From Sphagnum magellanicum (taxonomy: Eukaryota > Streptophyta > Sphagnopsida > Sphagnales > Sphagnaceae), in the NCBI GenBank assembly GCA_021904315.1, contig CM038922.1, positions 186,001-250,000 on the forward strand: 64,000 nt of DNA, written 5' to 3'. Both the position numbers and the translations under genes were made by a program. Below the pieces are notes generated by a model, which was not told the origin of the DNA, ran no database searches, and saw only the letters and a program-made list of their open reading frames with translations. Positions within the stretch are counted from its first letter, which is position 1. Each line of letters starts with the position of its first letter. Below, one piece after another: positions 44,100 to 58,600 of the stretch.

Positions 44100-45976
44100 A
44101 AAAAAGAAGAAAAAGCAGAATCCTTCTATATTCTTGGCTACGTACTGGCTATAGTTTTATGAATTCCTCGAAATAATGTCACCGATTAAATTGGAATTTT
44201 TATAGGGATGTTCACCACATTGGTTCCATCAAGAAATTGAAAAAAAAATCCTAGTTTGAAAGCTTAAAGAGATTAAAATTTGACAAGCAATGATAATATT
44301 AGGTACTATCTAATAACACAAATACTAATATGTACAACCAAAAAGACAAAGTCAAGGTCCTCATGATGATGTCATGGTACTTGCATGCTTCAAAAATGAA
44401 GACTAGGAAGTAGTTTTTTTTTTCATTTTTAGTTTATGGTGTATGTGACCAAAAACAATTTATTAAAAACACATATGGCAAAAACTCAAGAAAGTTGTTA
44501 AAATTTTGGTGGTTGTTGCCACTACTAAAAATGGGGCAAACTCATTAAGGTGTACCAACCAAGATGAAAAGGACATAGTCTTAAGCCCAATGTTGGTTTA
44601 AGAAATTCCTTTGTTTGATTATTTTGGGTTGTTGATTTAAATAAGGGGCCAACAAATTGGACTACACACACATGTGGATTAGAATCAATTCATGAATGTT
44701 TTACTTCATTTTGTTTTTGTTGTAATCTACTTCCAAGTTGGGGCAAGTTTTTGGTCAACTCACTTTCCCATTTTGCCTTCATTTGTTCCCCCATAACTAA
44801 ACTTGGCATTGTTGTTTTCCTTGTGTTTGCTCCTACATCAATTCCTTCCATCTTGTAGCTTCATTGCATTGCAACATATGTGAATTATGTGCATTTATGA
44901 TGAATTTACCTAGGCAGTACAAATAAGAAATTGCAAAATGTATGAGATTTGAGTTTGATTGGACCATTAAAAGGTTTGAGAGGCTTCAACAATTAGATAG
45001 TTCAAGTGTGAGCTATTAGGAGCATTGGCAAGATTTTTCCACCAACCCAAAGTGGTATCCTTCATTGCCATACTCCCCAAAAGCTTTTGTGCTAATTAGA
45101 TTTCGTTACAAGACCCTCAAGGCAACAAAGTGATAAGTCCTTGTGTTTCACTCAAAATCAACATGAAGGGATTTACGGAGGGTTTTATTCTAACATGGAG
45201 AACTTTAAGCTTTGACATTTCGTAGGCCATAATTATTCAATTTGGTAATGTGTCTAACACCTATCAATCTTTCCTCTTTCCAATATTTAGTCCTAGTAGA
45301 ATTAACAAGTTTATTTCAGTATAGACCTTTTAGTTCCTTGCAATTCTTCGACTCGAGGTCCTAGTAATTCAAAGGTATCTTTTGTGATTAAAATACAAGG
45401 AAAAAATTATGTTTCAATTTAACATCACTTATCTGATACCTTCATATGTCCTTAAAATGTTGTGTTTGATGAATGTATGTGCATACATTTATGGTCTAAC
45501 ATATGTCAACATCCTTTGCACACTTTGTTCACGATTCAAATTTTTGCTTACAAAGATAAGTTGTCTATTTTTTTGGGTTGAAAAAGGAAACCCACTAGTT
45601 TTTTGGGTGGTTGAAGGCATGTGTAACTATGGCTTATGTATTTTTCTCAACACCCATTGAATTTCACGAATCTAAAAGCATTCATGTGAGTTTCAAGTAA
45701 CTTTATTACGTTTCATCGTTTCAATTTGTGGAGTTCAATTGCATTTGTTGGTTATGATTTACGATGTTGGTCACATTCAAGTAAAATTTCAGCTTTGTTT
45801 AAGGCCTTCTAAATTTTCCATGTATTTTGTGGTAGAGAATTTGATTAAATTTGTTGCAAATTTGTGGTTTATGGTTTGAGAATGTCATGGGTCAATGCCT
45901 TATAATGTTTGAATTCACTTAATCAAGTGATTGGTAATCTTGCAATTTATTTTTGTAAAGTTTGTGTGGGTGACAT
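44100..45976. other. Intergenic sequence between the Bet v 1-type gene and the gypsy element
   Basis: AT-rich with no family-like frame. The 83-codon frame at 45409-45660 has no resemblance I know. No RNA gene or TIR found. Confidence 0.4.
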
Positions 45977-46330
45977 GGTGTCATGCCCGTACATGGCCTC
46001 ATACATGATGGCCAGTTATGGGCATGCCCATCATGATTTTTGGGGTTAATGTACGGTCTTAGGTGACTATACACTATTAGGTACATAGGGTTTTAGTTTA
46101 TTGGCAGTTGTATAAAAGGCCAAGCCCTTCCTTTCTCTTTTGTTTTATAGAATTCCTCTGTCAATAGAGTTTTCTCCATAATCAAATTGGATTTATAGAT
46201 GCTCATGGTGGTTATTACACGACCACCATCTACATACACTACATGTTCATTCCTTCTTTGCAATTTAATTATTGAAAAACTCTACTTTCTGTTGTTTCAT
46301 GTTGAAAACGATAGATTTTTTGTGCCTTTA
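45977..46330 (+). repeat. Probable 5' LTR (start of the gypsy element)
   Basis: Starts TGTCATGCCCGTACATGGCC after a T/G-rich flank. It holds a clear TATA box and a pyrimidine-rich stretch after it, as expected for the U3-R part of a plant LTR. The right boundary and a tRNA primer site were not identified. Confidence 0.5.
46111..46117 (+). promoter_or_regulatory. TATA box of the gypsy LTR
   Basis: TATAAAA within GTTGTATAAAAGGCC, about 135 bp after the LTR-like start. Position and context fit an LTR promoter. Confidence 0.55.
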
Positions 46331-46589
46331 AGTTCTTGAGTTGTTGTTATTGGTGTTGTTGCTACTGGAGGGAGCGCAAGTTGCTACTAATGTTGCTGCT
46401 GGTGTTGCTAGAGGGAGTTTGAGTTGTTGCATTTATGCCAACCAATAGAATAGGTTTCAAACCTCCTTCCCCCTTTCTTTTTTTCTTTCTTTTTTTCTTT
46501 TTTTTTCTCTCTTACACGTAGAGACACAAAAGGAGGCGGTCTTGAAAATGCCGAATAAAATAAATAAATTTTAATTCTTCTCCATGCTA

Positions 46590-46930
46590 TAGTGCAACGT
46601 TGGCCATCACCATAACATGCTACCGGCCATTGTCACATCATCGTAGTGCCATGAATTGCAACAGTGCTGGCCATTGTTGCAACACCGCGAGTTGTCAACC
46701 ATCGCTAGAGCGTTGCGAACTACAATGTGCTACCGGCCATCACCACATCATCATAGGCTACCAACGATCATTACAACACTTTGAACTACCAGCCATCACC
46801 GCAACGTCGCGAGTTGCTGGCCATCATCGCAATGTCGCAATGCTAGGAGCTGCAATGTAACGTTGTGAGTTGTAGCACATTATCGGCCATCGCCATAATG
46901 CCGAGAGATATAGTGCAATGTTGTGAACAT
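46590..46930 (+). repeat. Degenerate tandem repeat in the gypsy leader, CGGCCATC/GCGAGTTGC type
   Basis: Phrases such as CTACCGGCCATC, CACATCATCGTAG, AACGTCGCGAGTTGC recur about every 30-60 bp. The open frame across it (46600-46860) is made by the repeat. Confidence 0.6.
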
Positions 46931-46964
46931 AGTGGGCCACCATCGTTATAACGACGCTCAACCT

Positions 46965-47340
46965 TTGTCCATTTGACATCCATCAAACTCTCGTCAGACT
47001 TTCGTTCAACGTCTGTTTGATTTTCATTGGACTTTCGTCGAACATTCGTTGAACTTTCGTTGGACTTTCGTCAAATGTCCATTTGACCTTCGTCGGATTT
47101 TCATTGAACGTCCGTTTGACCTCCGTCAAACTTTCATTCGACATCCGTTCAAGTTTTGTCCAACTTTTGTTCGACTATCGTCCTACATCTTGCGATCTTG
47201 CATTTGTTGTCCTATGTCTTACGTTCTATCGTCTTGCCTTTCCATCCAACGTCCGTTTCATTTCCGTCCGACGTTCGTCCGACGTCCATTTAACCTCTGT
47301 CCAACGTGCGTTTCACCTCGGTTCGATGTTCGTCTATCAT
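46965..47340 (+). repeat. Tandem repeat with 33-bp higher order in the gypsy leader
   Basis: Units like CGTCCGTTTGACCTTCGTC with variable joints recur from 46965 to 47340. A 33-bp higher-order period keeps two frames open, so the translation shows an 11-residue echo (ERPFDLRQTFI...). This is repeat DNA, not evidence of a protein. Confidence 0.7.
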
Positions 47341-47634
47341 TGGTCATTCCCGATGACACACCGTATTCTTCAAACTGTACATTGTGTTAAAATTTTGTAG
47401 TTAATGCTTTGTATTGTTACAAAACTTTGGGCATGGGACAACACCATGTCCTCAAATGATGAGAACACTACCGCTTGGCAAGAGCCCATGTATTAGCTAC
47501 AAAATAACACACAATCTTTTGACCCGAATTTTTTAAACTCACGATCTTCACGATAGTACCATCAAGCCTCTAGATTACCACCGTCATCCAGTACAACTCC
47601 TACTAAGAATTCAAGTTCAAATTACACTACATCA

Positions 47635-48750
47635 ATGGTACATCAGAGTCCATTTGGAGGGGCTCATCAATGGGGTACGCCTATTACCACACCGGTTTTC
47701 ACACCATCACCATATATTCCGCTACAAGCCATTACATCTACACCCATATACAGCATGGAGGTCAACAGTTCCTCAGGGAAAGTTGAGAAGTTTAGTGGAA
47801 GGTTAAGTACTATTTTTTTGAAAGAGTTCAAGGCAACTTTCTCAATTGTGGTATGTGAATCGAAGCTCAAGAATGGCGCTAATTACACCGAGGCGTTCGC
47901 ATTCAAACAACTAGCCCGTTATGTGCACTGTGAGGCATTGGATGTTTACGAGCAGCATTCTCCAAGAATTTTGGGCGTCACCCAAATCCCCAATCCAGCT
48001 TATGACACAACCATTGCCATCCCCTTTCAAGTTACACTGCAAGCTACCATTGCACATCATGGGACTGTGCCTAATATTCCATTTTCGGTACCTACTTTAG
48101 TAAACCTTTATCGTTAACAACTCATTGTTGCGACCGCAAACATTCCTCCCACCATCGATGCATAAGCTTTTGTTGATCTAGTGGGGGAATTCTTTCAAAT
48201 TCTTGAACTTGAATTTCCGATTAAGAATTTTGAAAAAAATTTATAGCTTGCCACTTTCTCTTGATAAAAGGATGAAACCTTCAAGATGTTCTAGAGGAAA
48301 TTTCTCAAGCTTAAAGAGGATACTCAAAGCATCACAAACCTGGAAGCTGCCCATCCATATATTCATTCATTAGAAGGTATTCCAACACTCCATGCATAGG
48401 TCTTGTAACGGGTTTTTGCAAAATTTGAAAACTTGTACACTTTGCTAGATGTGTACAACATTTCTAAAAAGCTAGAACTGGCTCATGCACACTATGAGCT
48501 TAGTACTATGAGGCCTCCTTCACGTTCAAGGCCTCAACTTCCACCAATTGCGCCAACTAGATCATCACATTCTTCTTCAAGGGCTAAAGTAATGCACTCA
48601 ATTACACCCATCCTACCTTCTTGCAACTATGTGGCAATCCTACCCACAAAACAAGTGAGTGCAATATTCCTTCCAAAGATTTCTTTTGTGATTACTATGG
48701 GAAAGAGGGACATCAAAAAGCAATTTGTTTTGCCAAGTTCCCGGAAAGGA
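47635..48750 (+). pseudogene. gag and zinc-knuckle part of the gypsy element
   Basis: The N-terminal frame (47635-48117) has a Pro/Thr-rich lead then a retrotransposon-gag-like helical segment (KVEKFSGRL...FKATFS). Further on, 48621-48750 reads with two CCHC-like clusters (MQLCGNPTHKTSEC and FFCDYYGKEGHQKAIC), the nucleic-acid-binding knuckles of gag. Broken fossil. Confidence 0.7.
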
Positions 48751-49789
48751 AACAACTCCAATTACCATGGCAAAATTTGCCAACATCTTCCGTTACCCCT
48801 CAACCAAAAGCCAAGGCACCTTAAACCTTCCACTTAAACTTTCCCCACCAAGGGTAATTCTAGTAAGAATGCTAAGAAGAAGGAACACAATGCTGACAAA
48901 AGGGAGGTGCTTCAAGCCCATGCCATTCAAGTTCAAACTCTACAAAATGAACTCAAATCATTGAGGGCCCAACTTGCTAATCTAAAAGGCAAGTCCTCCC
49001 AACTAACTAGTCATGCCCAATTTGTACAAGGTTTAGGATCATAGGAGGGACCTCCTAGGTCGTTTTATGGCCTCCCACATGATGCCATGGTTGGGGAGTA
49101 TGTTTTTTCCAATGCACACAATTGTAATCTCACACCAAAATTTGCTACTTCTTTTTGCCCTTCCTATGTCGCGGCATAAGAGGCTAGTGTGGCACCCAAA
49201 GTTTCTGCCAGTAAGTAGGTAATTCAGACTGATGGACTTGCATTTGGTTCAAGTCCTATTACTAGGGCTAGAGGAGTTCAAACAATCATGCCACAATCTT
49301 TTCGTCCTCTCAACACGGAAGAAAAACGCACCTTATTGGCGAGGGGGGAGGAAACTATTACACCACAAGCTATTAGGGCATCAAATTCCCATGTCCCATG
49401 AGTACATGTACATCAAGAAAACACACAATTTTCCACTACTCAACTTATGGAATGCCAAACTTCAAATGCGTGAAGTGGCACAAAAGCTTATGAGTACACC
49501 GTTATTTAGTTTTCAAGATTTGAAGCTAAGCACTAGGGACATAATTACAGTATTAGAGGATACCCTGAACATTACATCAGGTCCTCTACTAATCCTTGAT
49601 CCACATGCTACAGAGGTCCCATCCAACACCTTGGAGAGACACTTGATTAGTTCACGTGTTGCAGATTGCATTCATAATCTGGTCATTAGTTTTAGCATGG
49701 TTAAATTAGTGGGTTTTCTTAGCTCTAATTCTATATTCACATATCTAAAAAAAGTTAAAAACACCTCATTTGTGGATTTGTTATTCACC

Positions 49790-50060
49790 AATGGTGTTTG
49801 GATAACCATTTTCTCCACAAAGTCTCTCACTCATTTCCAAAGGTGGTGCCTAGTGAAAAAACTTCCATCGCCACTAGAATTACCATTGTCAACAATACTA
49901 AGTCACCAATCCAAGTGGGAGGACATACACCCAAAGTGGTACTTCTTGATACATGTGCCCAACCAATGTTTCTTGGAGTTCAATTCACCAAGAAGATGGG
50001 CGTGCTTGACTCCAAACTACGAAAATCTATGTGGTAGATTCACACCGTTAGTGGGAGCGT
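49790..50060 (+). pseudogene. Aspartic protease part of the gypsy element
   Basis: Reads PKVVLLDTCAQPMFLGVQF, the 'hydrophobic-hydrophobic-Asp-Thr/Ser-x-Ala' flap-site region of retropepsins, in the expected place between gag and the downstream domains. Fossil. Confidence 0.65.
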
Positions 50061-50599
50061 AGAGGAGGTACTTGGGGAAAGTTCAGATTTGATTACACTT
50101 AAATTCAATGAAGGTACAGATCATGAGCTTTGCTTATAGTTCAGATGTTTAATCACTAATGCCACCAGTTATGATGTGTTCATTGGGCAAGAGGCCTTGT
50201 TTCCACCAGGTTTCACAATTGACAACTGGTTCGAACATGCGTACTACCAAATGACTGATGGCCACCACCTGGGATACATACCCCTTGATTTACATGGGAA
50301 TATTAGTCCTATGGTTCACCATTGTATGCTCAAGGAAGCACACATTATTTCTTACATCCAATAAGCTAGCCACGAGTGGATAAAAGGAGATGAAGAAGAA
50401 ATAGCTTACGCCCAAGCTATTGAAAGCTTGAAGATGGTTCTTACTGACATTCAACATGGACTAAAGGTTTTACAGAGGTTCAAAGCAGCCCATGAACCCT
50501 TGGTCAAAACTCTATCTAGTTTTGAGAACATGAAAAGCCATGGCAAACCGATTAAACCAATACTTCGTCAACTAATTGCCTAGACATCACCTAAGGAGG

Positions 50600-51570
50600 G
50601 GATTACATTACTAGAGTTTTTTGGTGGTATTGGTACAAGTCTCAAAGCCCTACTACAGTCAGGGATGGTGGTTCGGAAATATTTTTACGTAGACATTGAT
50701 CCTATTGCAAAGCAAGTGGCGGCATCAAGAATGATGGAGCTCACAGCTAGATTTCCACAATAGTTTTCAACCACCATATGGAAGGCTAATTTCACTTTCT
50801 TGCCCTCTAACATATAACTAATTCAGAAAAAGCATGTGGAATTACTTGGCCCTATGGATTTCATCATTTCATGTTGGGAGTGTCAAGGATTTTCAACGGC
50901 TGGATTTGGAGAAGGTTTAAATGACACAAGATCCGGTCTCTTCACGAACATGGTACGATTAATCACCTGGGCTCAATCCATTTCTCCTATGCTTGGTTAT
51001 GTAATTGAGAACACCCCTTTTCAGCTTGACCAAAGGGAAAAAGTCTAGGAGCACTACACGTTAGTCAAGCATTACCTTGGAGAACCCCTCTTACTCGATG
51101 CGACACAATGTGATTCCTATGTGCACTGGCTGCGTAATTGGTGGACCAACCTGACACCACTCTCAATTCTGTAGCTAGCTCTGAGATACACCATCAGAGA
51201 CCCCAACCTATAGGTTTCTCACATATTGGATGATCAGAGCTCTTACTAACCAATTATAAAGCAAAAGAAACCTCCTTGGTTTCTTGTGAACATAATAGGA
51301 AAACCAAGAGGTGCTTGGACCACCTTTGTCTCCTTCCCAGGAGCACACGCCTTTCAAGGGGATGGACCAAGCTTAGTGTATCATCATGCTTCAGCCACTT
51401 GGGATGAACCAAGCCCAAAAGAAAGAGAAAAGGTGATGGGGTTCCAAGCTAGCAGAACTAGTCACACTAAGGTGATTAAATTGGAACATAACGCTCTGTT
51501 GGGGAGAGGCATGGACCTAAACTCCCTTACATGGTTGTTGGTAACCTGTGTACTCTTTCAAATGTACACA
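50600..51570 (+). pseudogene. 5-cytosine DNA methyltransferase domain inside the gypsy element
   Basis: Motifs appear in the order of ordinary C5 methyltransferases: motif I LLEFFGGIGTSLKALL (near 50610; binds S-adenosylmethionine), motif IV CWECQGFSTAGFGEG (near 50875; holds the catalytic Cys), motif VI YVIENTPFQLDQ (near 51000), then HYTLVKHYLGEPLLLDATQC, and a C-terminal LLGRGMDLNSL (near 51490; motif X region). The unpermuted order argues against capture of a plant DRM enzyme, whose motifs are rearranged, and favours a DNMT3/DNMT1-like source. It lies between protease and reverse transcriptase on the same strand, so it was probably part of the polyprotein. Fossil, broken like the rest. 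Confidence 0.85.
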
Positions 51571-51839
51571 ACACCAACACTGATTCAATCAGCTTGTAGT
51601 TTTGTCGATGCGATCACACGACATCTCGACCAAATACACTTGCCTATCTTCAAAACTCTACATTTCACTCTTAGTGTTGGGGGGGGAAGAGGTACCATGT
51701 AATTTGACTCAAGTTGTGTCTCATACACCTAGAAGTACATTAGCTTCTGGATAAACAATTACAACCTTCTACAAATCTACATAATTAAATAGTGGAAAAC
51801 CCAATACACCAGGTTCTTCAAACACACATTCCAATTCCA

Positions 51840-53270
51840 TTCCATGTGTTTCCAACTACCCTTTCGTTATGGGGAACCAGCTCACCAAGAAGGAGAGAAA
51901 GACCAGGTCACGAACTCGTTAATTAAATACAAGAATGTGTTCGCATTTTCAATGAAAGATTTAAGTAGGTGTAAGACCATGCAGTTCTTTATAATCCTTA
52001 CAAATGAAACACCCGTCTATCAGAAGAGGCATAGGTTGAGCAAACATGAGTGGGAACTGGTAGATGAAAGATGCAAAGAGCTCCATGAGGTTGGTCTCAT
52101 TTAACCATCAAGCTTTAATTTCATAATTGATACAATAATGCTAACAAAGAAGGATTCAACTGGATTATGGACTAAGAAAAGGATGTGCGGGGATTATAAG
52201 CCTTTGAACCTAGTTACACCTCAGGACAAGTACCCCATGCCCATCCCTAAAGAACCGTTTAATAGCATTGGAGATTCAAACATCTTCATAATTGTGGATT
52301 TGAAGCAAGCTTCAACTAGATTGTTTTCATTGCGAAGGATCGCAAGAGAATGACATTCCATGGAAACAAGTTGTGGGAATGGCTTGTGATGCATTTTGGA
52401 TTGAAAAATGCACATGTCTTCCTTTAACGATTCATGGACCAAGTTCTTGAAGGGATAAATTTCCTGAAGTGTTACATAGATGATGTCCTAATGCATAACA
52501 AAGGATTCTTGCAACACTTGGCTCATCTTGAAGAGTTATTCAAAAAACTCCACGAAGTCAATATGAAGATCCATCCTAAAAAGTGTGAATTTGTTGTCAC
52601 CTCAGTAATCTACCTTGGACACATAATTTTGCCAAACAATATTATGGCTCATTGGGCCAAAATAGTAGCCATTTTGGAGATCCCCAATCCTACTAATGTT
52701 CACACATTGAGGAGCTTCATTGGACTATGTAATTATTATAAAATTTATGTGCAAGACTTCAATACTATTGCTCATCCTCTCTATGCATTATTAAAGAAGG
52801 ATGTTGCTTGGACATGGAGTGATGAGGCTTAAGAAGCTTTCAACACACTGAAGGAAAAGCTTTCAAAGTTCCCCATTCTAAGAAGACCTGATTTCAGCAA
52901 GGTTTTCATTTTACACACTAACTGGAATCCTCTTAGTATTGGAGTTATTTTTGGCCAACTTGATGAGGAAGGTAAGGAATATGTTATTGCCTATCATCTC
53001 GAAGCAACAATAAGGCTAAGAGCAACTATTCTTCATACGAGGGGGAGTGCCTCGTTGTTGTATGGGCCATCATACATTTCAGGCCCTATTTTTATGGCAC
53101 CAATTTCACTTTGTATACCAACCACTAGCCTATCAAGTGGTTGATGACCAATGATAAGCTTAGTGGTAAGTTACCTTGTTGGGCGCTTATACTTCAAGAA
53201 TATGAATTCAAGGTTATTCATCGACATGGTATTACACATTAGAACACGGATACCATGTTGTAGAGACCTT
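51840..53270 (+). pseudogene. Reverse transcriptase and RNase H part of the gypsy element
   Basis: Recognisable pieces: YQKRHRLSKHEWELVDERC (the approach to RT), KRMCGDYKPLNLVTPQDKYP, CYIDDVLMHN (the Y-x-D-D palm motif), GHIILPNNI and LRSFIGLCNYY of gypsy RT, then the RNase H lead FSKVFILHTNWNPLSIG. Typical Ty3/gypsy spacing. Fossil. Confidence 0.9.
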
Positions 53271-53513
53271 TCATTACCTCTGAAGATTTCTCAGAAGCCA
53301 GGCAAGACTTTGACCATATTTCAATAATACATGTATCTAATGCATCTAGTTATTTTGCACTATTACAATGTAACCTGGTTGAGCATCCCATTGTGGATAT
53401 ATGGGAGGACTTGGACACTTTGAGGTTTTTTCAGCATGGGGAATACCCTCCCCAAGTTACATCAAATCATTGGGATCGCATACAACAACGATCCAAACGC
53501 TACTCATGGAGGG

Positions 53514-54307
53514 TGACACACTCCCAAGTCCCTTGTTGAACCCACTTGAGGGTCCAACTATGTAGAGTTGCGGAAAGTTGGGATTTGGGGCCCGCTCCCA
53601 ACTTCCTGCACAAAAAGGGGTAGAGGGGCGTGCTAGAAGTCTCGGGATTAAACTAGGAAGAGGGACTAGATTATCAAGCTCGAATCTGCATCCAAAACCA
53701 ACCACAAGAGGGTTAGTTAGCATTCGAGAACACCCTTGGGTGTTGGTACAAACCACGGGCACTTTGACACACAAGACTCACCATGGCTCGGACTCGGGGG
53801 AAGCCACCACCTTCCCCCATATAGTATACTCTGTAGTTCTCCGCCAAGGCTACATCCAAATGGCTCTTTTTCTCGGGACTCCCAAGTTGGAGTCCCGAAA
53901 CTGTCTCGGGTTGGAGTCCCGAGACTTTGGACGCTCATAGCTCCTCGCCGCAAACTCGAATCGGGACAAGGTCTTAATCAAAGTTGTAGCCCTCGTCAAG
54001 AGCTTTTCAACGTCGTGTTGCACTCCCTCAGGCGACGTCGGGAAGAGGTCGATTCTCGACTTTTAGTGGTCGGGAGTCAAACTGGCAGTGTGATTCCCGG
54101 CCCTTTTTTTGCCCATAACTTGGGCTGAAGATGTCCAAATGGCCCATGCGAGGCCATTTTGGGCATCTACACTTCAAGAGCTTTTCATTGATATAAATAA
54201 CGCACCTAGGCAAGGAGATTTGACCCTTCAAATCATCTTCTGAATTTTCCCACTTTTGGGAGTGTGAGTTGCATTCTCACACTTAGCCCCAAAGTGGGGT
54301 TGTGACA
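53514..54307 (-). mobile_element. Solo LTR, copy B, nested in the gypsy element
   Basis: Minus-strand start TGTCACAACCCC, end GAGTGTGTCA. The flanks are GAGGG and GAAGG (plus strand), a 5-bp duplication with one difference. It is 794 bp, CpG-rich and closest to copy A. It splits the gypsy element between RNase H and integrase, so it came later. The open frames through it are not genes. Confidence 0.9.
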
Positions 54308-54374
54308 GAAGGACAATCACCTCGTTCGATGCTTACCACAAGGCAATAGAATGGTTCCTCCACCACATGAATGC

Positions 54375-55250
54375 CCTGGTCTTATTTAAAAGCACATTTG
54401 GAGCTTAGACACTTTGGAATTAAGTGTACTTATAGCCTTCTCACTCTTCATTACCATTGGAGAGGTATGTATACTCAAGTTCGAGATGTCATTGTTAGGT
54501 GTGAACAATGTGATAAGGTGAGAACTTCCTTCTCCTTTCGACAACTCATGCTTTCTCCACTCCCTATTTAAGGCATGTTCTATCGCTGGTCATGTGATTT
54601 AACTAGAAAGTTACCACAAACCTCTAAAAGTAATGTCTACATCATGATTATGATTGATCATTTTTCAAAGTGGGTCGAGGTTGTTGCAGTACTGGACATG
54701 TCATCACATAGCACCAGCCAAACTTTCTTACAACAAGTTCTAAGTAGGTTTGGGGCTTGTGCTAAGTGCCTTACTAATCAAGGATCAGAATTCACGGGAG
54801 ATTTCCAAGACCTACTTGACCATGCTCTCATTAACCATCAACGGACTTTAAGAGATCATCCCCAAGCTGATGGCCTTGCAGAAAGGATGATTCAAACATG
54901 TAAGAAGGGACTTTGGAAGATTTGCCTCACTATGAACAAAGAGGATTGGGATTTGGCTCTCCTTTACATCGCCATGGGTTACATGATGTCCAAACATGCT
55001 TCTTTGTCTCATTTCTTTTTTTATTTTCTACTTTTTGGGAGACATCCCATTCCACCCTCTTTCATTACTGTTCAAATGGACCAGGTTGTGGACTTGAATT
55101 CTCCATCCATTTGGGCTAGGGTCATTGTAGATAGGGTTACTCTATTCAAGAGGGTGATGCCCATGGCCATGGAAAACTTGTCCATTGCACAACATCAAAA
55201 CACCTTTTGTATGCACACACACGAGGTGGCAGTTACAAACCTAAGGTGAA
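54375..55250 (+). pseudogene. Integrase part of the gypsy element
   Basis: The zinc-binding part reads LRHFGIKCTYSLLTLHYHW then RCEQCDKVR (H2C2). The core (54575-55249) reads IMIDHFSKWVEVVAV, TNQGSEFTGDF and ADGLAERMIQTCKKG, which place the D,D-35-E residues of a retroviral-type integrase. Fossil. Confidence 0.9.
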
Positions 55251-55469
55251 ACAATTTGATGTAGGTGATTTTGTGTATCTCCAATGGCAACCTAATGATA
55301 CTCTAGACATTTTTTTCCGGTTGCACTATCTTGAGGATTAAGGTGATTAGGCCTTCATGTGTGTTGGAGTTGCAAGGAACTAACGGACACACAATTCGAG
55401 ACCATTCCAAAAACTATGTGCCTTGCCACTTGCTGAACTTGGATCCTACCATCATCATGTCAACTTGGA

Positions 55470-55642
55470 TTCCTCCACATGACTATCCATGTCAGGTATG
55501 TCAAAAGATAGATGATGCTGATCAGATGCTACTTTACAATAATTGTAATGGTGGATACCATTTCTTCTACCTCAAGTCGAAGCTCACTCAAGTTCCCATT
55601 GGCAGTTGGTATTATTCATCATGTTCTCCTGCAACACCTTGA
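55470..55642 (+). pseudogene. PHD-finger-like C-terminal module of the gypsy element
   Basis: After the integrase and an 'IRDHSKNYVPCHL' linker comes CQVCQKIDDADQMLLYNNC, then GGYHFFYL and PIGSWYYSSC. The Cys/His spacing and the 'DADQMLL' and 'P.GSW' words are those of a PHD zinc finger, a reader of histone tails. Many gypsy elements of plants carry a chromodomain here instead. Fossil. Confidence 0.7.
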
Positions 55643-55680
55643 TTTCTACTCAGACCATGCCATGTTTTTCCCAGTTTAGG

Positions 55681-55692
55681 TCTGGGGGGGGG
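55681..55692 (+). other. Polypurine run near the 3' end of the gypsy element
   Basis: A run of eight or nine G soon after the last coding part, where a polypurine tract for plus-strand priming is expected. No LTR start matching 45977 follows, so the call is tentative. Confidence 0.35.
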
Positions 55693-55695
55693 TAC

Positions 55696-56718
55696 ATGAA
55701 AATTTCATTTCAACCTCCTCTTGTGCATTGTATATATATGTGCATGCATCTCTTTTTGGTTGAATAGTTTCTACCTTTGATTAGTTTTAGTCTTTTTGTT
55801 TAGTAGAGTTTACTATGGATCTACACCCTTACGACATCATATGTCATGACACTACACGTCATGACAATGGCTTCAAAATCCTTCAAATCTTGAGGGAAAT
55901 TCAAAAATAAGGATCCATAGGAAGTAGATTATGGTAGTTTTGATTTGAATTATAAGAATCCAACCATGAAATTGCTTATGTTTGGAATTGATGCGAAGAA
56001 ATTGGTCAAGGAAGGCCATGTCATTCTTGAAGAGGTTACGGTCGTGTTTAGCCACAATAAGGCCAATGGTTACATATCAAATAGGGTATTTGCAAACTAT
56101 AGTGGATCACTTTTGACCAATTTTTTGAGTCCTTAAAAGTGTGTTTCGTAGTGTATTTTTTACAAGCTAAAAATTGTGAAGTTATAAACTTGTAAAATTG
56201 TTCATTTTTTTTTTTAACAAAAATAACACATGACCATGCAATACCTCGTAGGCTATAATGTTTGTGAAAAAAAATATAATAATTCATACAAATGTAATAT
56301 TGATGGACTTTACCATTTTCATCAATATTTGACCTATGAAAAAATCCATAAAACTTTTATGTGACTTTCAAATGATTTGCAAACACCCATTTTAAATTAC
56401 TACCCACATTTTTGAGTTTTGGAAAAAAAATGATTTATTTCATTATAAGTTGAACATATGGTGAATCCATTTACATGTCCTTTATGTACTATCACACTAT
56501 AACTAATATGCGATGAAAAGCCCCCCATTTGGTGTAGAAAATTAAACTTCAAATAATTTCAAGATTTTATCACGCTAGATTAAATCACAATCACATACAT
56601 GAATCCTTTTTCATAAAATTTAATAACTATTTGACATGGGACAAATTCTAATCATAAAAGTGCTAAAAAATATGGACTTTCACACCAAAAGTTATCCACT
56701 CTATCTTGCAAATACTCG
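55696..56718. other. Unassigned sequence right of the gypsy element
   Basis: A 63-codon frame at 55945-56136 (KNPTMKLLMFGIDAKKLVKE...) has a protein-like composition, but I do not recognise it and it has no splice or start context. The facing CATATGTCATGAC / CGTCATGAC words near 55840-55865 do not make a convincing LTR start. Confidence 0.35.
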
Positions 56719-57495
56719 ATAGGGTGAAAGCACATTAAGGTTAAACCACTTTTCACCCAAAAAAATGATGTATAACGAGCATTATAATACACAATAAGTT
56801 AAAATCTTAATGGTATTATTTGGTTATCATAAACACAAGCAAAAAACTTTAAAATTTGCATAACATTTTGGAATTAAAAGTTCACTTTTAGTCAAAATTA
56901 ATGTTGATCTAATATTAAAAATGAAGGAAATTGGATAAAATTAATGTACATACAGTATAAAACTTACAGTTTTTCAACGGCCATAGGGCCTCATGTTTGT
57001 GATTAATGAAACATTACCAAACAAAAGAAAATTGAAAAAACAATACAATGCCTATCTATAAAATCTCCTCCTTTTTGATACGGTAGTGGTTTTTTTCTTT
57101 AAATATATATATTATTATGCATTTATTGTTCAAAAATGCAATAAACACACTTTTTTTATAATAAAATTTCATCCAAAAACTTTAAATCCTTAAATGATCA
57201 AAAATTTAATTCATGTATATCAATATCATACACCATAAAAAAAATTCACCCAAGAATTCCACTCGCAACCTTGGTTTTGAAGTATGTATGCATTTTTTTC
57301 TAACTCTATGACATGTACTATTTTGTCACAAATATATTCCATACATTAAAAAAATCATTGTTTGTTGGATTTTTTAAAATTTGATTAGATTAAGTTTCAA
57401 ATTAATCAATTATATTTAAAACAAGCAAAAATAATCCAAGATGTGATGTCCATACATTACAAAAAGAAATAATTGTAAAAAGATTATACTTGTGA
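56719..57495 (+). repeat. Direct duplication, first copy (about 0.75 kb)
   Basis: Shares with 57835-58600, in the same order, AGGGTGAAAGCACA, GATGTATAA...GTACA.GATAAGTT-type text, GGCC.TA.GGCCTCATGTTTGTG, CCTAG..TTTGAAGTATGTATGCA and ATCC.A.ATGTGATGT. Identity is moderate with many small gaps. No gene inside. Confidence 0.75.
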
Positions 57496-57834
57496 TTACA
57501 AGTTTTGGGCACTTAGTGTGCTTATGCCCAATAGCCTTGAGTTTTTATTTGAGGCGAGGATGAAAACTAAAGAGTTGTAGTTCAAAATTTTCCCCACAAA
57601 TGAAAAAATCACCAACAATGAATTTGCACGCAAACTTTTTGGGGTATTGTGGCATAAAGAAGGGTGTGCCCATGAGTTGGCCATTGCTTGGTTTAGTGAC
57701 TACAAAGGAAAAATATCAAATGATGGTTAAAGCCCATCAAATTGATTTGGCCCATGCTAGAATAAAGAACAAAAAAGTTTTTGTGAAAATGGAGGGTACT
57801 ATTAAGTCGTTATAGTTGTAGAACCCAAATTAAA
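57496..57834. other. Spacer between the two duplicated copies
   Basis: A 71-codon frame at 57600-57815 (...YCGIKKGVPMSWPLLGLVTTKEKY...) is not recognised. It might be a transposon remnant. There is no other signal. Confidence 0.3.
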
Positions 57835-58600
57835 AAGGGTGAAAGCACACTACAAGCGAGCCAATTTTCATAAAAAAAGGTGATGTATAATTAGTATCAT
57901 GGTACATGATAAGTTTAAATTTTGATGGCATCATTTTACAATCTTATACATAAGCAAAAAAATCCTAGAATGTGCACAACAACATTTTGGAACTCAAATT
58001 TCACTTTAAATCAAAACTAATTTAGATCCAATGATTAGATGAAGAAGATTAAATAAAATCAATGTACATAACATATATAATGTGCAGTTTTTTGTCGGCC
58101 ATAAGGCCTCATGTTTGTGGTTCATAAGACACTACTAAACAAAAGAAATCTAAAAAAAATAATGCAATGCCCAACTATAAAATCTCTTTCTCTTTCATTT
58201 GGTATTGGTTTTTTTAAAATACATAAAATATTTTTCCTTTATATATATATATGAATTTCCAACCAAAATTTTAAACTTCCAAGTGGCCTTAGATTCAATT
58301 GATGTATATCAATAATAATGACCACCAACAAATTCACCAAAAAATTCCACCAACCCTAGTTTTGAAGTATGTATGCAATTTTTCATATTCCATGACAAGT
58401 ATTATTTTGTCACAAATATATTTCATATGTTGAAGTTCACCAATGTTTGTTGAAATTTTCTTTTTAAATGATTTTCCTAAGTCTAAATATAATCCAATAT
58501 ACTTCAAACAAACAAAAATAATCCATAATGTGATGTTTATATTTACATTAAAAAACCAAATGTAAAAACGCAATATTTATGACTATAATTTTTGGGGTGG
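57835..58600 (+). repeat. Direct duplication, second copy
   Basis: Starts AAGGGTGAAAGCACACTACA and ends with ATCCATAATGTGATGT and AT-rich text, parallel to the first copy about 1.1 kb to the left. The copies could be LTR-like or a plain segmental duplication. TG...CA ends are not evident. Confidence 0.75.

Follow-up and report, generated by a model that had tools for sequence, protein, structure and literature searches.

The window, the whole 64,000-nucleotide stretch of Sphagnum magellanicum DNA that was analysed, contains an old, broken (dead) member of a large Sphagnum retrotransposon family that carries a gene for a DNA-methylating enzyme. Sequence and profile comparisons, supported by the predicted fold of the catalytic domain, show a polyprotein with a DNMT3-type cytosine methyltransferase (MTase) between the protease and the reverse transcriptase (RT) and a PHD finger after the integrase. 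The MTase is a fixed component of the family and is under selection. Trees, domain order and split terminal repeats place the family with Klebsormidium gypsy elements taken here as KnitGypsy-Dnmt3 (de Mendoza et al., 2018; PMC5890265). The available part of that report indicates that the kind is already known from Klebsormidium; its bryophyte and chlorophyte members are apparently new.

Organization of the window element

The decayed Ty3/gypsy-type element with its DNMT3-like domain occupies positions 45979–55866 (+ strand), about 9.9 kb if the nested 794-bp insertion is counted, and is flanked by a 4-bp target-site duplication (45975–45978 on the left, 55867–55870 on the right). Another genomic copy, L014, matches it by blastn in three blocks: 45979–46504 (73%), 47300–53513 (86%) and 54308–55866 (87%). 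The 5′ end, beginning with TGTC, is formed by terminal repeat A (45979–46265, +; 75% identity to repeat A of L014), and the 3′ end, finishing with GACA, by terminal repeat B (55693–55866, +; 85% identity to repeat B of L014).

The start of the second, collinear blastn block corresponds to a gag-like region with approximate limits 47300–49700 (+), where a decayed zinc-knuckle-like stretch was read by eye near 48.6–48.7 kb and the piece 47557–48114 had no Pfam match. The aspartic protease region follows (49942–50361, +), with the protease-like LLDTCAQ at 49942, in one frame with the MTase; the window piece 50140–50361 gave no protease match in the Pfam scan, and the same region of the open copy L009 matches PF13975 (E 1.6e-7). 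Next come the MTase domain and the RT plus RNase H region (51793–53141, +), which is interrupted by stops and a frame change. Window pieces of the latter matched RVT_1 (52428–52829, E 3.3e-11) and RT_RNaseH_2 (52833–53141, E 1.7e-10), and the pieces 51793–52101 and 52105–52350 had no Pfam match. The integrase (54371–55249, +) comprises an H2C2-type motif at 54410 and the rve core (E 4.2e-12). The position of the MTase between protease and RT, on the same strand, as described in the initial annotation of this DNA, is thus confirmed. That annotation had passed over a PHD-finger remnant after the integrase (about 55484–55640, +), recognizable by its likeness to the same place in L009, where PF00628 is matched with E 1e-11.

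The alignment break relative to L014 at 53514–54307 (no strand assigned) marks the nested insertion of 794 bp, which has TG...CA ends and a 5-bp near-duplication and is perhaps a solo LTR from a different element. A degenerate tandem array with spacing mostly in 11-base steps is also present in the 5′ part of the window element (46955–47345); a 36-bp tandem array is present in copy L012 at 1345–1675. Just outside the element, direct repeats of 73–82% identity lie at 56721–58215, spaced 1115–1119 bases.

The methyltransferase domain

The four MTase motifs named by the initial annotation are all present on the + strand in one frame (window frame 1), in canonical order, between 50617 and 51528: motif I FFGGIGTSL (50617–50643), motif IV CQGFSTAG with the catalytic Cys and a preceding Glu (within 50872–50904), motif VI ENTP (51007–51018) and motif X LLGRGMDLNSL (51496–51528). 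Motif VIII is represented by YVHWLRNWW (51118–51144, +), which reads AHRxR in relatives. The domain had been placed correctly, with limits (50600–51570) that were too narrow: its actual span by alignment to L009 is 50497–51636 (+). In this tblastn alignment all 380 residues are matched, with 80% identity, seven in-frame stops and no frameshift. The proposed Pfam search gave a PF00145 match for the piece 50818–51045 (E 1.9e-7) and none for the piece 51250–51699.

The motif order I-IV-VI-VIII-X is unpermuted, as in DNMT3, and the rearranged order of DRM enzymes is absent from the domain, in agreement with the earlier view that this is not a DRM. Plant DRM is DNMT3-related and present in the Sphagnum genome at three loci (C15:12757090, C17:13029985 and C6:13160109), but differs from the retroelement domain in its rearrangement. 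No unpermuted host DNMT3 was recognized in the Sphagnum genome among the opened matches to a human DNMT3A fragment. The predicted fold of the catalytic domain is matched best by animal DNMT3A and DNMT3B, with 20–26% identity in the fold alignments.

The best profile matches are also DNMT3-class DNA enzymes (DNMT3A with 88 bits, DNMT2 with 32 bits), which argues against modification of the element's RNA or of an RNA-DNA hybrid instead of finished DNA. Such a substrate would fit the location of the MTase next to RT in the polyprotein, and RNA methylation was raised for LINE enzymes in the available part of the report by de Mendoza et al. (PMC5890265); we consider it quite unlikely here.

Motif IV departs from the animal enzymes. 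The catalytic Cys is present as annotated, but the residue before it is Glu instead of the usual Pro, so that the window family has Glu-Cys-Gln and a second Sphagnum family Pro-Cys-Gln, in place of the Pro-Cys-Asn of DNMT3. To our knowledge, the Pro of the catalytic Pro-Cys pair is near-universal. Glu stands in its place in 112 of the 162 proteins in which the motif was found, a redundant set with many Sphagnum-like fragments, and owing to this replacement enzyme activity is not to be assumed. The domain might accordingly be kept for binding only, as an inert fold holding DNA, RNA or SAM or as a spacer of the polyprotein. This view is also favoured by the Klebsormidium enzyme, which produced no detectable methylation in yeast, a result that its authors call inconclusive in the accessible text (PMC5890265). 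Against an inert domain stands the conservation of its motifs: an alignment of 15 sequences shows no variation at the F and G of motif I, the Glu of ENT/ENV or the A, H and R of AHRxR, and almost none at the catalytic Cys. Moreover, the Glu and Pro forms have interchanged at least four times on a tree with 50 scored rows, as if both work. A role in binding only is regarded as rather improbable. The Glu-Cys motif, if active, would alter what counts as essential in this enzyme class.

Terminal repeats and target-site duplications

The description of the element as a Ty3/gypsy retrotransposon holds for its pol domains and their order, but not for its ends, which are split repeats instead of plain LTRs. 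In L009 the Pfam order PF13975, RVT_1, RT_RNaseH, H2C2 and rve, with integrase last, is that of Ty3/gypsy pol. The element is therefore gypsy by its domains and not by its repeat layout, since two like LTRs at the ends are missing. The full layout consists of A1 (311 bp), the internal part, B1 (178 bp), A2 (311 bp) and B2 (178 bp), with B1, A2 and B2 abutting.

Among 19 fetched and oriented copies this A...B1A2B2 layout was found in eight, and in decayed state in L026; seven have A...B only, the form of the window copy, and three (L010, L020 and L027) could not be assigned. The form A-B-A...B did not occur among the fetched copies. Recombination between B1 and B2 might have given rise to the A...B form; alternatively, the two forms may correspond to one- and two-repeat circles. 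In the seven copies where the A1/A2 pair was found, its identity is 96.8–99.0%, indicating that these copies are young.

A perfect 4-bp target duplication, read by eye, is present in 10 of the 11 copies for which both flanks could be seen, including the window copy; L017 has none. The forms A...B and A...B-A-B (L009, L013, L016, L017, L019, L021, L028 and the window copy) both include members with target duplications. The 4-bp duplication and the element ends TGTC...GACA fit a DDE integrase. Five pieces covering the L009 frame matched rve and no phage-type integrase, that is, no tyrosine recombinase (Pfam, E up to 0.1).

Copies in the Sphagnum genome and selection

The genome contains 124 PF00145 matches, some of them host DRM or second-family loci, and 11 of the 124 lie in open frames of 1000–2379 residues. 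With the MTase of L009 as query, 109 matches were obtained at at least 108 places, the window copy among them (108 of the 1138 first-look candidates were scored). L009 itself has a single open frame of 2379 residues that encodes protease (PF13975), MTase (PF00145), RT, RNase H, H2C2, rve and PHD domains, with the MTase intronless within the Pol frame.

The search for further copies with the same domain order, which the initial annotation had proposed, showed that the MTase upstream of RT recurs across the family. An MTase match was listed upstream in 42 of the 50 best RT copies (from 106 listed), three of these resting on short matches. Five of the other eight copies were fetched and all have the MTase, four as a full domain in shifted pieces and one as its last 65 residues only. 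The domain thus accompanies RT in nearly all checked copies and is a fixed component of the family. An isolated insertion of a host MTase gene into the window copy alone, which copies free of the domain would have indicated, is refuted: the MTase is in the same place in 46 of the 47 RT copies checked, with a remnant in the other, and elements with MTase exist in other species too. Nothing was found in favour of such an insertion, and its probability is negligible.

Among nine stop-free copies (36 pairs) the ratio of summed dN to summed dS is 0.24, a value derived from few changes, since the copies are young. For six copies (15 pairs) dN/dS amounts to 0.18 for the MTase and 0.30 for RT-RNase H, based on uncorrected distances; on these small counts the MTase appears to be under constraint no weaker than that on RT.

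Most of the 149 differences that separate the window copy from L009 are C-to-T or G-to-A (88). The rates of these changes, which were not polarised, are highest at CHG (24/79) and CG (10/46) and lowest at CHH (54/411) sites. This excess, with its maxima at CHG and CG, suggests that the window copy was probably methylated in life, for which host enzymes alone suffice.

Relatives and origin

The near relatives are Sphagnum balticum P0106 and P0028 of the liverwort Calypogeia fissa, the latter with protease plus MTase and 63% identity over 80% of the query. Further relatives carry the labels Haematococcus lacustris, Chrzof1 (read as Chromochloris zofingiensis), Monoraphidium neglectum, Closterium and Klebsormidium nitens, and many are metagenomic. 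The host range given initially, algae and dinoflagellates with no common land-plant case, was therefore too narrow, since a liverwort, several green algae and another Sphagnum are included. No report of bryophyte or chlorophyte members of the MTase-gypsy kind was found in the literature searched, and the available parts of PMC11244446 and PMC6453930 hold no mention of moss elements of this sort. PMC12344493, as far as its text was available, cites PMC5890265 for the occurrence of DNMT3 members in streptophyte and dinoflagellate elements of the LTR Copia and DIRS types.

Comparison with the algal report of 2018 (PMC5890265), suggested by the initial annotation, proved to be the correct one. We take K. 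nitens P0232 and P0227 to be KnitGypsy-Dnmt3 elements; P0232 has the order MT-RT-RH-INT and, by eye, a protease-like start. Both fall inside the retroelement MTase clade (100/99), and the RT of P0232 is in the before-RT half of the RT tree (100/99). A closer grouping of the Sphagnum family with the K. nitens elements was not found in the MTase or RT trees. The two share a DNMT3-class, unpermuted and intronless domain in a gypsy Pol, a repeat structure described as DIRS-type, alongside gypsy domains, in the Fig. 4 legend of the partly available report, and purifying selection, given there as Ka/Ks below 0.2 (PMC5890265). They differ in host, the Sphagnum family residing in a bryophyte with matches at at least 108 places, and in motif IV, which is Glu-Cys in this family and Pro-Cys in the two K. 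nitens proteins. The PHD finger was seen in the Sphagnum family; the two K. nitens sequences carry the label "partial", and the lack of a PHD finger in them need not be real. SymbioDIRS-Dnmt3 and SymbioLINE-Dnmt of Symbiodinium, in the same portion of the report (PMC5890265), are likewise retroelements with a cytosine MTase in or beside Pol, but they are of the tyrosine-recombinase DIRS type or LINEs, unlike the DDE-integrase gypsy elements of Sphagnum.

A set of 249 proteins or frames with the MTase comprises 39 with the domain before RT, 38 with RT-RNase H before it, 5 with RNase H before it, 12 without RT in the piece and 155 with the domain alone. The before-RT kind occurs in Sphagnum, Closterium and Klebsormidium, and the kind with the MTase between RNase H and integrase in Haematococcus, Chrzof1 and Monoraphidium.

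Phylogenetic placement of the domain, proposed with the initial annotation, gave a firm clade and a variable position. Four rows were excluded before tree building. In one tree 51 retroelement domains form one clade (100/99) on a long stem relative to the few references, DNMT3A, DRM and four phage enzymes; with bacterial references added, 41 retroelement domains are again one clade (100/99). When the 51-row tree is rooted with the phage enzymes, this clade adjoins DNMT3A and DRM, whereas in the tree with bacterial references, where it is not nested with DNMT3A, DNMT3A and DRM join the phage enzymes (97/87) apart from it; both placements involve few references and long branches. The latter grouping means that a host DNMT3 is not established as the source gene.

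The two positions of the MTase could be taken to mean that moss, Klebsormidium, Closterium and chlorophyte elements each captured a DNMT3-type gene separately. The after-RNase H kind is a clade in the MTase tree (97/86), and a clade of all before-RT domains is missing from the best tree, but trees with such a clade are not rejected (lnL 9.1 lower, p 0.129). The accessible part of PMC5890265 also calls the K. nitens acquisition independent, with respect to that of dinoflagellates. Opposed to separate captures are the single MTase clade in both trees, the RT tree, which is split by architecture (17 rows versus 19, 100/99), and a C-terminal PHD finger in members of both kinds. Several captures seem doubtful, and one old association followed by one relocation of the MTase within pol is the simplest reading of the sequences. 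The presence of members in bryophytes and chlorophytes points to one old lineage that includes the Klebsormidium case of 2018.

PHD finger

No chromodomain match was obtained after the integrase of L009 (Pfam, E up to 0.1). Among PDB structures the L009 finger is closest to the fingers of KMT2D, MLL3, KDM5D, WSTF and KAT6A; it could be a targeting module. Among elements of the before-RT kind a C-terminal PHD finger was found in L009 and L011, and among those of the after-RNase H kind in 32 proteins with full order; it is also present in the second Sphagnum family and in L063. Three Closterium C-termini extending past the integrase (P0197, P0219 and P0222) have no PHD finger; these elements carry the MTase, which indicates that the two modules need not act together.

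Chromoviruses are gypsy elements with a chromodomain after the integrase. The Sphagnum family resembles them in having a module of histone-reader type at the C-terminal place, but the module is a PHD finger. In DNMT3, too, a zinc-finger reader of histones (ADD) accompanies the catalytic domain; in Sphagnum the PHD finger lies at the integrase end.

Possible function

Cytosine methylation is a main route of transposon silencing in plants, yet an enzyme of this type is here part of a transposon. The best overall explanation, which we hold to be somewhat probable, is that the Sphagnum family is akin to KnitGypsy-Dnmt3 and that its enzyme serves self-marking around integration, with the PHD finger steering. 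The MTase would be synthesized and packaged within the polyprotein. Around the time of integration it would methylate double-stranded DNA of the element itself or, alternatively, the DNA where the element lands. The PHD finger may guide the integrase to a histone state, taking the role that the chromodomain has in other gypsy elements. Fresh copies would then land pre-marked and be quiet, tolerated and less often treated as foreign DNA. On the other hand, elements without DNMT also transpose in the genomes concerned, according to the available text of PMC5890265. The many copies in Sphagnum, some with open frames, make self-marking by an element directly addressable in a plant.

A wider proposal is put forward tentatively, as one that may well prove wrong. 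One green-lineage group of retroelements, ranging from chlorophytes to mosses and liverworts, would have carried a writer (the DNMT3-type MTase) and, in some members of each branch, a reader (the PHD finger) since before the chlorophyte/streptophyte split, with one relocation of the MTase; the element would set the epigenetic state of its own new copies, and Glu-Cys would be a working variant with altered substrate choice.

Second Sphagnum family and related database entries

A second Sphagnum MTase-gypsy family, with the Pro-Cys form, is represented by L001/L045, L003 and L004, and the B1-A2-B2 order is partly visible in it. Its MTase frame stops at TAG followed by CAACTA in all three copies (L045, 5727–5735; L003; L004); in L063, after 3488, TAG followed by CAATCA is located between MTase and RT. 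The same frame is open beyond the TAG in L045 and L063. Leaky stops follow the pattern TAG CAR YYA. These sequences between MTase and RT fit it, and a readthrough signal is possible; against it, L036 and L038 depart from the pattern, and L045, with two further in-frame stops at other places, is no clean copy. A real signal would mean that the second family produces more MTase than RT, as for a structural protein.

The 9.3-kb contig L063 (CADCWO010000201.1), filed under a Synechococcales genome, is itself a retroelement of the lineage; its ends, identical over 127 bp, look like those of a circular assembly. The contig is likely eukaryotic contamination, and the same problem may affect P0063, labelled Obscuribacterales, and P0172, labelled Minisyncoccia.
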